From contig NC_079880.1 in assembly GCF_029227915.1 (NCBI RefSeq), positions 9,513,501 through 9,577,500 on the forward strand: 64,000 nt of DNA. Direction: 5' to 3'. Both the position numbers and the translations under genes were made by a program. The notes under the pieces were generated by a model, which did not search any database, was not told the DNA's origin, and saw nothing but the letters and a program-made list of their open reading frames with translations. Numbering within the stretch: position 1 is the first letter of the stretch; every line of letters starts with the position of its first letter. Source of the DNA: Hydractinia symbiolongicarpus (taxonomy: Eukaryota > Cnidaria > Hydrozoa > Anthoathecata > Hydractiniidae). Below, piece by piece: positions 18,589 through 42,895 of the stretch.

Positions 18589-18666
18589 CAAACTCGTCCC
18601 CAGTGCCTTTTGTCTCTTTTTTTTTTACTGAACGGCGAGAGGAAAAGACACTGGAATCGTAGGCCG
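18589..18666 (+). repeat. Left terminal inverted repeat of giant element
   Basis: Begins CAAACTCGTCCCCAGTGCC and ends ATCGTAGGCCG. It matches the reverse complement of 42,819-42,895 with two substitutions and one indel in the T-run. Its inner part can also fold (CCAGTGCCTTTTGTCTC against GAGGAAAAGACACTGG). The two edges of the fold differ (CAAACTCG outside, ATCGTAGGCC inside), unlike the symmetrical fold-backs nearby, which supports a true element end. Confidence 0.75.
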
Positions 18667-19208
18667 GAATTCTGCACTTGATTGCTTGGGTATAATTACC
18701 GTAATTATACGCATTTCTAAGAATTATGCCGTAACCATGCAAGCACATTTCGACGATGAAAGAAAATGGTGTATAAGAAGTGATAGAAATTTTTTTGTTG
18801 TTGTTTTTATTTTCAGTTGTTTTTGGTCACTAAATTTGTTAATAACATTGTTGGCTTCTGTAATTCATTTGCAATTTACCCTGCAATTTACCCTAAAAAA
18901 TGCATTTGGAAAATGAAAGTCTCGCGTAATCTATGGTAAGTCAATTCATTTCTCTTATAATTTTGGTGGTAAAAATATCAGTAATGCCTTCGAGTGTATC
19001 AATACTATGTCATGCACAAAGGTATGTAAAAATACATCAACGTTTTTCTGTCTTTTGGTACCTTCTTTGTGTTTATCTATTTCGTGTTTACCTTATGTAT
19101 TGTAATGAGCATCTGTGCATTCCCTCTAATATCTTTTTTGTATTATTTTGGTAATAGATAGGCTACATGGATATAGTTTTAAAATGTGCACTTTTTTGTC
19201 ACTTCCAG
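18667..19208. other. 5' region of the ZAD/DUF6589 gene, first exon unresolved
   Basis: The zinc-finger exon needs an upstream exon ending in phase 1. An ATG at 18,914 followed by seven codons and a good GTAAGT donor at 18,933 is tempting, but its phase (2) does not match. This stretch may hold the promoter and a non-coding first exon. Confidence 0.3.
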
Positions 19209-19561
19209 GAAAAGAAAATACTACTCCAAAGAAAGTATATTTTCATGGTAACACTGAGGATGGGCAGCAAAGATTCTGTAGACTCTGTGGAGAAAGTAAC
19301 TGTGGGAGATACATACGTATTTTTGGTGGAAGCAAAGTGGCAGATGGATTGCCAGCTAAAATTGAAACTGTCACAGGAATCATAGTATCTGACGCAACAT
19401 ACGATGTTATATGCCGAAAGTGTTTAAGATTTATTGAGAACGTTATCAGTTTTCGCAAAAAATGTCAGTCAGTACAATCATCATCAACTAAAAATTATGT
19501 TGTTAAACGAATGGCAATTTCTCCTAAAAGTGTGAACAACTCATTTGTAAAAACTAATAAA
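19209..19561 (+). CDS. ZAD-like zinc-finger exon of the putative transposase gene
   Basis: The exon follows CACTTCCAG and ends at AAAG/GTAGGT. It encodes about 117 residues containing FCRLCGESNC near residue 22 and VICRKCLRFIENVISFRKKCQ near residue 72. That is a CxxC, a gap of roughly 45-50 residues, then a second CxxC, the layout of ZAD (zinc-finger-associated) domains, which are protein-interaction or DNA-recognition modules. From memory, animal proteins with a C-terminal DUF6589 often begin with such a domain, and this links it to the exon at 39.5 kb. The exon is open and undamaged. Exit phase 1 fits exon 26,505-26,596. A sequence at 20,480-20,526 after TTTACTTTAG also fits in phase and could be an alternative exon. 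Confidence 0.65.
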
Positions 19562-19629
19562 GGTAGGTAATTGTATACCCTCACAGAACTGTATTTAAAA
19601 AATAATAATCAAATTGTTTCAAATATTTT

Positions 19630-19769
19630 AATATATATATATATATATATATATATATATATATATATATATATATATATATATATATATATATATATAT
19701 ATATATATATATATATATATGTATATATATATATATATATATATATATATATATATATATATATATATA
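19630..19769. repeat. (AT)n microsatellite, left
   Basis: 140 bp of almost pure AT dinucleotide with one G interruption at 19,721. It lies in the first large intron of the plus-strand gene and abuts a cluster of CATTTGGT motifs on its right side. Confidence 0.95.
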
Positions 19770-39542: not shown

Positions 39543-40390
39543 GTAGTTGCATTATTGAACTTTTTTGGGATGGAAAGTGTTGATGAATACCCAACAAAGC
39601 ACAAATTTATGTCTAACATGTCGCATAAAGGCGATGAAGATATAAAAGTATATTTTGACTCGGTTATTGGAGCATTTGTTGATGCCTACATTTTTCAAAG
39701 AAATCAGGCACCCAACCCTGGAGAAGAAGACTACGTCAAAAATTACTCCTTGATGATAATGTATTTAGCTGTCATTGTTTTGCAATTAAAAGATGCTGCT
39801 GCTGAAGGAGATGGAGAAAGGAATCTCACAAATCAAAAATTGTTAATGACTATCTTCAAATCGATGAACGCCTACAGTAAGTATGCACTAGAAATGTTTG
39901 TTTCTATAGCACTGATTGAAGTTGTTAGTTGTTAAGTCACTGTTTATCCTCAGAGAGAATTTCTAATGAGTTGAAATGGGGATTTTTTAACAATTGGACT
40001 GGTGGCAATGGAAAAAATATAGAGGATGACCTGACTCAAGAAATTTTTAATTGCATCAGTAAGAATGCTGTCAAAAGACTTGGAGCAAACAAAACTCTCA
40101 AAAGCATTAGTGACATATGCAAAGCCACAACTGGTATAAGAACTGTTGTAGAAAAAGTGGATGAGGAACTAAACATTCATAGAAATAGTACACAGCATAC
40201 AGCTCCAAGTGCGTTCAATGATGAACTTGGAATGATTACAGAGTTAATTCAACTCAATCCCTTTGAATATTCAGCTGGACGATTTCACGCTTGTTTCCCA
40301 GATATACAAAGGTCACCAATGAAATATCTCAATATAAATGACTATAACAATTGGATAAAACTTTACCAAAAAAATATGTCTGGTATATAA
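39543..40390 (+). pseudogene. DUF6589-like exon, last exon of the putative transposase gene
   Basis: Starts after TTGTAG and reads [20 protein letters not shown], a long middle with [24 protein letters not shown], and [16 protein letters not shown]. After a one-base frameshift near 39,927 it continues LSSERISNELKWGFFNNWTGGNGKNIEDDL, AVKRLGANKTLKSISDICKATTG, and ends MKYLNINDYNNWIKLYQKNM. The blocks 'kyALE', 'W.r.vN..G..GkNi..DL..E', 'LGaN.t...i' and the 'FPdi...P...l....l..Wi' end match what I know of DUF6589 proteins, which are multicopy in cnidarians and some fungi. Its role is unproven, but the copy number and the company of a helicase suggest a transposase. The usual upstream half of the domain was not found, so the gene is broken. 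Confidence 0.6.
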
Positions 40391-40738
40391 CTGAACATTA
40401 TATTTAAATAGGGTATATTTTTACTAGGATTATTTTTTTGAGGATTTCACACCTACATCGTCACAAAAATTAATTCTTTCAAGGTATATATATGCTTTAA
40501 AGTACAAAACGTTTGCAGACAGATGTGCTAATTGTACTTGTACTAATTATTTGCATTTTCTTGAAATCAAAGTCTTGACTAGGAAATGCTTTTTTTAATC
40601 TTTTTGTGAAACAATTTTTTATGTAAAAAGCTCAATTGTTGATGCATGGTTAAAAAGTACAAATTAGGTATTCTTTATACATAAATAGAAATTTGGTGTC
40701 CCAAGAAAAAGTAACAATTACATATACTGTTTTCATAC

Positions 40739-42674
40739 TCAAGGTAATTCTGTAGTGTAAATTTGTATGAGCTCATATGCTTTTTTCGATACATCTTCGT
40801 CCCAAAGACCAAATCCCAAAAGGCTATCTTCATTTTCAATTTCAGTGACATTATCCAATATCATTGAAAACTTCTCCGCAATTTCTTTAGTATCCATACT
40901 AAGACCAAAAAACTCTCTTGGCGGATCATCTGTTAAATTTGCATCCAAATCTGCAAGCAGGTTATTAAATTCTTGTGACAATTTTTGCAAATCAACTTCA
41001 CTAATTTTACGTTGTACTTTTTCTCTGACCAAGACGTGATCAAGTTTACCATAGTCGGTTTCTGGATGACATATAATACAACATTTTTGTTGTGGTGGTG
41101 CTTTATGTTTGAAATGCTTCAACAACAAAGATCTCAAGCAGCTACTGTCATTTTTGCAATATTCAGCCATCTGTTTGTCAATCAATCCCTTCGTAATTCT
41201 ATCAATACTAATGTCAGAGTTGTTGTAATGTAACACAGCTACAGCATCCTGTCCTCTGCGACCTGCTCTGCCTATTTCCTGTATGTATTCCTCCAATGTT
41301 GGAGGAGGGCCAATATGTACAATTTGTTTCATATTAGGTGCATTTACGCCCATACCAAGGGCAGAAGTTGCAAAAATGACTCTGATGTTACTGTCGATTT
41401 TTGAAAATTCTGAAATAATTTCATGCTTCATGTGCTTAGTTTGGGGTGCATGAAATTGCACAAACAAGCTTTTGGATGGTTTACATTCGCCTCCTACATA
41501 TTGCAAAGGGCCGATTATACTTTCAAAAAGTTTGTACCCATATCCACAATACTTTAATTTACAGTATATGATAGTCTGTGGATATGCTTTCGCTTGTTTT
41601 TTTAAATCTTCTCCAATCGGTAACAAAATCTTTTTGATACCTTCGATTCCATATGAATTGTGGTATCTTTTTTTTTTAACCAGGAATACATTTGAGCGGT
41701 TTGGATTGATAGTCAAAAAACACAATCCCTCATTCCAAGAACAATTTTTATTCTGCTTGTTGTTTTAACTGTAGAAGTTGCTGTTAGGGCAAGCACAGGA
41801 ATGTCCAGAAAAAAGGATCTAATGGCTCCAAGATTAAGAAATTCTTTTCTGAAGCTATCACCCCTGAAATTTAACAATATATAAACTATATAACTGGCAC
41901 AGTTTCTATTTATTATATATCTATGTTGGTTATATTTGCTAGAATTTTTATAGACATAGTATATATATATGTATATATATAGTTACATTATTTTTTTTAT
42001 GAAGATATAATAACCCTTCTCGGGAGTTGAACCCGAATTTTTAAATAGCTACATATGAAGTATCAGCTAAATAAAAAATGAAAGAGTTTCAGCATAGCTA
42101 CAGCTTTTAACAACAGTTTCATATTAGAAAAAAATTACCAAGTGTCTATACAATGTGCTTCATCTACAACAATGGCTTTTACTTCTTTTTGGAGTGTGTT
42201 TGTCTTTAGTAAGTTTCTCCCCACATCACTTAGAATTGCTTCAGGGTGACAAAACAAGATTTTAAATTTTTTTATTGAAAAATCTGGTAGTGCAGTACTA
42301 TTAACTTCGTTGTCAGGATAGGAATCAGAGAACAAATTTGTTCTTGCTTCTTCAATGTCAAATGGGCTTTTCAAGTGAAAACATTCCATTCCAACTTTTT
42401 TTAAAAATTTCATTTGGTCATCTATAATCGAATTTAAGGAAGTGATAACAATTATCATACTTCCTTTCTCTTCATTTGAAAGAAAATCTGGCAACAACTG
42501 AAAAATGATCGATTTCCCATAACCAGTTGGGAGAACAGCTAAAACGTTTCTTCCTTTTAAAATTGCTTCTAAGCATTTTATTTGCTTTGGTTTAAAGTTC
42601 ATATCGGGAAATGAATTCCTACCAAGTGCAACCTGGATTCTATTTAAAACTTCAAAAACGCGTGTACTACTCAT
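40739..42674 (-). pseudogene. RecQ-type DNA helicase, two exons, one frameshift
   Basis: Exon 1 runs from ATG at 42,674 to a TG/GTAATT donor at about 42,137. Exon 2 starts at 41,865 after AATTTCAG and joins in frame. Motifs: AVLPTGYGKSIIFQ (Walker A), ITSLNSIIDDQM, VVDEAHCIDTWGDSFRKEF (DEAH box and the aromatic-rich loop), VLALTATST (motif III), VIFATSALGMGVNAP (V), YIQEIGRAGRRGQDA (VI). A RecQ zinc-binding region follows (CLRSLLLKHF...KCCIICHPE). It lacks HRDC and other accessory domains, so it is short, about 570 residues, like transposon-borne RecQ homologues. One frameshift near 41,735 separates the end of motif III from the rest. A TATAAAG-like box lies about 70 bp above the ATG, inside the right terminal repeat zone. 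Convergent with the DUF6589 gene. Confidence 0.8.
42005..42050 (-). repeat. tRNA-like B-box remnant in the RecQ intron
   Basis: On the minus strand ATTCGGGTTCAACTCCCGAG forms a perfect T-arm (TCGGG/CCCGA around TTCAACT) with a good B box. No A box is clear. Probably a fragment of a tRNA-derived SINE inserted in the intron. Confidence 0.45.
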
Positions 42675-42818
42675 TTTCGCTTAACTTTACTTGAACTTGA
42701 ATCCGACTGAACACAAGAAGCCCGCTTGAATGCACCATCTTTATAATATGACGATGCAGAACGCCACGCATACATTATATTATCTTTTCGCATAATTTGG
42801 CCATATATTGGCCATTTT

Positions 42819-42895
42819 CGGCCTACGATTCCAGTGTCTTTTCGTCTCGCCGTTCAGTAAAAAAAAAGAGACGAAAGGCACTGGGGACGAGTTTG
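42819..42895 (-). repeat. Right terminal inverted repeat of giant element
   Basis: The reverse complement begins CAAACTCGTCCCCAGTGCC and ends ATCGTAGGCCG. It pairs with 18,589-18,666 at near identity. The next base outside starts AGATTTAAGG, and the left element is preceded by GCATTTTG; I see no convincing target-site duplication for any choice of edge. Confidence 0.75.

Follow-up and report, generated by a model that had tools for sequence, protein, structure and literature searches.

Is an interval bounded by matching inverted repeats, and holding the genes expected of a transposon, a single element? This question is raised by positions 18589-42895 of a 64,000-nucleotide stretch of the colonial hydroid Hydractinia symbiolongicarpus (C6:9513501-9577500, hereafter the window), which a first-pass annotation had interpreted as one 24.3-kb helicase-encoding transposon, perhaps the largest of its kind. 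By searching the genome (480.9 Mb, 76 contigs), we found a complete-looking relative of only 6.2 kb, and we read the window, with a probability of roughly 0.82, as the remains of two separate copies (A and B) of this ZAD-DUF6589/RecQ transposon, lying at two insertion sites. The parts concerned are listed below and assigned to the copies according to this reading; P0001 is a full-length relative of 922 residues with zf-AD and DUF6589 domains.

18307..18588, left flank, holding the target of copy A; a 96% copy without the insertion lies at C6:9905798-9906078
18589..18669, + strand, 81-nt terminal inverted repeat that closes copy A on the left, aligning to the right repeat
18589..19641, + strand, left half, copy A, 97.9% identical to the complete element over its bases 1-1052
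19184..19564, + strand, exon 1 of the ZAD-DUF6589 gene (P0001 residues 1-127, zf-AD), 97.6% identity to P0001
19642..39540, 19.9 kb foreign to the element, in the place of element bases 1053-2873
39541..40387, + strand, 3' part of DUF6589 exon 3 (P0001 residues 647-921), frame break near 39930
39541..42895, right half, copy B, 97.5% identical to the complete element over its bases 2874-6224
40742..42674, - strand, gene for a RecQ-type helicase, with two exons (42674-42138 and 41862-40742) separated by an intron, the second with a frame break near 41718
42816..42895, - strand, 80-nt terminal inverted repeat that closes copy B on the right
42896..43896, right flank, a repeat in which copy B has its target

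The structures from which the annotation had started could all be found again. The two terminal repeats face outward; three substitutions and an indel in a T run separate them, and the first bases of both are exactly CAAACTCGTCCCC. The exon inside the left repeat carries zf-AD (PF07776, E 8.9e-10, within the open reading frame 19130-19570), whereas DUF6589 (PF20231) near the right repeat is split over two frames (39540-39929 and 39932-40384) and converges on the RecQ gene, whose DEAD domain lies in 42674-42138 and whose Helicase_C and RecQ_Zn_bind domains are carried by 41862-41719 and 41716-40742. Both genes are broken in the window. On the other hand, the copy at C11:9032027-9038250 (6,224 bp) has the same terminal repeats and a perfect target-site duplication (TSD, 9/9); its match to P0001 runs through three exons free of interruption, and the reading frame is unbroken in both of its RecQ exons. 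The helicase and DUF6589 genes therefore do occur together between such repeats elsewhere in the genome, and the claim of a giant 24-kb transposon gives way to that of a ZAD-DUF6589/RecQ element of 6.2 kb, complete by its appearance, in a laboratory cnidarian.

A genome search with the left terminal repeat gave at least 53 matches, many in convergent pairs (40 of 94 candidates scored), which places the repeats well beyond coincidence; 20 stretches with repeat matches were fetched for measurement. Besides the pair in the window, 11 convergent pairs were measured, and all 11 were flanked by direct duplications of 9-10 bp (8 perfect; 9/10, 8/9 and 7/9 in the other three). This tally omits six unpaired or incomplete places (L023, which is the same place as L008, and L024-L028, with an additional small palindrome at L028), three more unmatched single repeats and ten foldback pairs of short length; at L017-L019 the repeat is damaged and the right edge was placed by hand, and L022 has A instead of C at the first base. 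Pair lengths ranged from 97 bp, in foldback forms, up to 21.3 kb. Those between 1.1 and 3.3 kb derive from the complete element by internal deletion. In the 10.9-kb pair both genes are still represented by short matches, and in the 21.3-kb pair part of RecQ is all that can be matched, so the long copies are inflated and decayed. A 97-nt foldback mini-element with the family ends forms a near-perfect palindrome (z −14.8), while a hairpin was not significant in the left terminal repeat of the window (z 0.07) and weak in the right one (z −2.35, 5 of 200 shuffles equally good). Two small palindromes in the window (63853-63927 and 18374-18454) have family-like ends (CAACCTCG...CCCAG) and are possibly mini-elements of related families; no duplication was evident around them by eye.

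The flanks of 18589-42895 agree at only 4 of 9 positions in the 9-bp comparison and 3 of 10 in the 10-bp comparison, so that the absence of a TSD, already conceded by the annotation, stands; for random flank pairs from the window, 7/9 or better was reached in 0.4% of trials. The right flank (from 42896 on) belongs to a repeat present at at least 40 places counting the window, the others being 87-96% alike and some of them partial (40 of 352 candidates scored). In all five unoccupied copies read, the sequence runs across the junction as ...CTTCGACCACT AGCTTTAAGG ACACG without the element, indicating that the right end was inserted into a multicopy repeat. In the window the terminal repeat is followed by AGATTTAAGGACACG, and the target AGCTTTAAG of the five unoccupied copies appears as AGATTTAAG, which resembles an ordinary insertion with one target copy kept. 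The upstream part of this repeat is not found beyond the left end, where a single insertion would place it; searching for it in the window gave nothing but short matches and, for one copy, a 56-nt match (79%) at 2653-2708, away from the left junction. The uninserted copy of the left flank at C6:9905798-9906078 reaches the exact junction base, past which it continues for about 400 nt without a window match except for one of 18 nt. Because the left and right flanks are different target sites, the outer ends point to two insertion events. A duplication displaced by a later insertion was also considered, by seeking the 9- and 10-mers of each side on the opposite side, one mismatch being allowed; matches exist, but none adjoins a terminal repeat, and one exact copy of the left 9-mer within the interval, at 20148, was given no weight.

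The annotation's reading, one helicase transposon of 24.3 kb and perhaps the largest such element, would account for the paired repeats and for a gene order and orientation like those of the family. However, it would have to lack a duplication, sit in two different target sites and have had 1,821 bp replaced by 19.9 kb of unrelated sequence, in a family whose complete element is 6.2 kb; we consider it very improbable, and 18589-42895 was rejected as an intact transposon on the absent TSD and the different target sites. The main rival to the two-copy history is a rearrangement using the ends of different elements: the interval would go back to one insertion, of which an outer end was displaced afterwards, either by hybrid-end or one-ended transposition, which are known in other cut-and-paste elements, or by a rearrangement that joined a new flank at the terminal base. 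Such a history would leave the terminal repeats complete down to the final base and the two halves collinear, as they are, but it requires an extra rare event at the exact base, and the right end looks like the ordinary insertion described above; we regard it as unlikely. In the two-copy history, the window would contain the left end and exon 1 of copy A and the right half of copy B, with the satellite and the other sequence of the 19.9 kb between them, and in its simplest form each copy would have lost its inner part.

The inner part is indeed missing. Element bases 1053-2873 (1,821 bp) are gone, with 19,899 bp of other sequence in their place, and P0001 run against the whole window gave no convincing match to residues 128-646, in agreement with the annotation, which had not found the middle of the DUF6589 protein. 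Hidden exons were rejected as an explanation, since neither this run nor a Pfam scan of the three + strand frames of 18590-28590 and 30500-40390 recovered these residues; zf-AD was the sole family above the cut-off in that scan, DUF6589 scoring 25 against a cut-off of 27, and the stretch between 28.6 and 30.5 kb was covered by the P0001 run alone. The interior contains the following.

19631-19769 and 38763-38890, AT tracts
27361-33990, minisatellite of 6.6 kb with 152- and 233-nt units
37881-38637, two copies of a 378-nt unit
38882-39542, 2.3 copies of a 285-nt unit, resembling by eye a tRNA-derived short interspersed nuclear element

ARAGORN reported no tRNA. A nested 19-kb element with inverted ends of its own in the AT tracts was considered: these inner ends aligned with a score of 56.5, above all of 200 control pairs (mean 31.7, maximum 52.0), but the motif common to them recurs in the minisatellite. 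At L023 (C13:9359400-9369300), the match to the window stops at the intron-1 AT tract, and the outer repeat end is replaced by the same 285-nt tRNA-like unit as in the window.

Is the helicase a regular part of the element? P0001 gave at least 67 matches in the genome (49 of 343 candidates scored), and the 30 best DUF6589 loci were examined with about 1.5 kb of flank each. A RecQ match lay beside DUF6589 at 28 of the 30 (all except L048 and L058), and the two genes were convergent in 26/26 loci with sufficiently long matches. With L045, L048, L054 and L058 left out for short or missing RecQ matches, these 26 loci form eight groups at an identity of 85%, and the identity matrices of DUF6589 and RecQ correlate with r = 0.978, a value unreached in 2000 permutations. 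Judged from this pairing, orientation and correlation, the RecQ helicase is a steady companion of the DUF6589 transposase and not a chance neighbour, and the two genes show tight co-inheritance.

As for DUF6589 itself, the full-length P0001 model was poor (predicted local distance difference test, pLDDT, 60.8), and a model of the P0003 domain took its place. This model, of moderate quality, has an RNase-H-like domain in which a helical insertion separates the second proposed catalytic residue from the third, a predicted fold like those of hAT (Hermes), Transib and RAG1, suggesting a DDE transposase of this type. The proposed catalytic residues are D362, D550 and E735 of P0001, and two of the three fall in the part missing from the window. 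DUF6589 is the likely transposase of the family, as the annotation had supposed, and a Pfam family without known function would thereby gain a probable fold of the DDE transposase kind. Sequence comparison of DUF6589 with the PDB gave no match at E ≤ 1, Foldseek alone gave none at E ≤ 0.001, and in viral contigs two patterns matched 40 stretches, of which 0 were confirmed as DUF6589. The literature search found no paper naming DUF6589.

TSDs are TTAA in Kolobok, 8 bp in hAT and 5 bp in Transib elements, in contrast to the 9-10 bp measured for the Hydractinia family. RAG-like transposons share the convergent gene layout, as described in the excerpts of PMC7204232. The AcademH lineage of the Academ superfamily was reportedly defined by Kojima in 2020 (Mobile DNA 11:15). 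The excerpted text of PMC10045372 gives AcademH a TSD of 9 or 10 bp and a helicase, and AcademX a TSD of 3 or 4 bp and a nuclease; the title of Kojima 2020, as cited there, places AcademH in animals and fungi. All 11 measured relatives (8 of them perfectly), though not the pair in the window, agree with the AcademH length, and DEAD, Helicase_C and RecQ_Zn_bind agree with its helicase, while AcademX fits in neither respect. Classification as a helicase-encoding terminal-inverted-repeat transposon of AcademH type is thus supported at the level of TSD length and helicase content; what the annotation had said of a helicase transposon holds for the family, by the C11 copy, the TSDs and the RecQ pairing, and fails for the window interval. 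Academ is listed among the DDD/E superfamilies in the excerpts of PMC9587614, which also describe a Kolobok lineage with RecQ, KolobokH, and one red-algal Kolobok with RecQ on the complementary strand. Assignment to KolobokH would therefore explain a transposase paired with RecQ, but with the difference in TSD and with KolobokH reported in those excerpts from fungi only (PMC9587614), it is scarcely credible for this cnidarian family. The Hydractinia family is new, though its kind is known, and what the window preserves of it is wreckage.

We propose a cut-and-paste AcademH-type family in Hydractinia with a complete form of 6.2 kb, in which the transposase, with the ZAD zinc domain at its N-terminus and DUF6589 at its C-terminus, would bind the 80-nt ends, excise the element and insert it with a 9-10 bp stagger, while the convergent RecQ helicase on the same element would probably open or process the ends or repair the site. 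The ZAD presumably has a part in the function of the transposase. Besides the window exon, zf-AD was above the cut-off in all nine Hydractinia DUF6589 genes scanned (L011, P0012 and seven more loci, namely six from further identity groups and the ungrouped L054); these loci were picked for a prior N-terminal match, and the 9/9 applies to that selection. A protein search with the ZAD part returned P0001 itself and nothing else, and the best PDB match of the ZAD was 7po9 (E 0.12). A ZAD at the N-terminus of a transposase was not met in the small part of the literature examined, and this domain may set the Hydractinia family apart from AcademH; zf-AD, transposase and DNA transposon occurred together in no paper found. 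Since a cnidarian transposon carries the domain, a transposase origin of ZAD can be suggested tentatively, as a possibility of low probability; if true, the link would bear on the source of the N-terminal domain in the large insect family of ZAD transcription factors.

Other features of the window lie outside the interval. The right-flank repeat contains an open frame of 299 aa at 42927-43826 for a USP-type (ubiquitin-specific protease, UCH) deubiquitinase, possibly one of a gene family spread by a transposon or by retroposition. At 46788-50343, a perfect inverted duplication with 1262-nt arms carries a reverse transcriptase and a GIY-YIG match under the cut-off, which we take to be a Penelope-like element. 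On the other side, Helitron-like genes (DUF6570, Helitron_like_N and PIF1 helicase, in overlapping frames) occupy the - strand of 9698-15154, and a piggyBac-type transposase (DDE_Tnp_1_7) lies in two frames at 16096-17560, left of the left terminal repeat, adjoined by a sequence (17989-18304) that has more copies in the genome.

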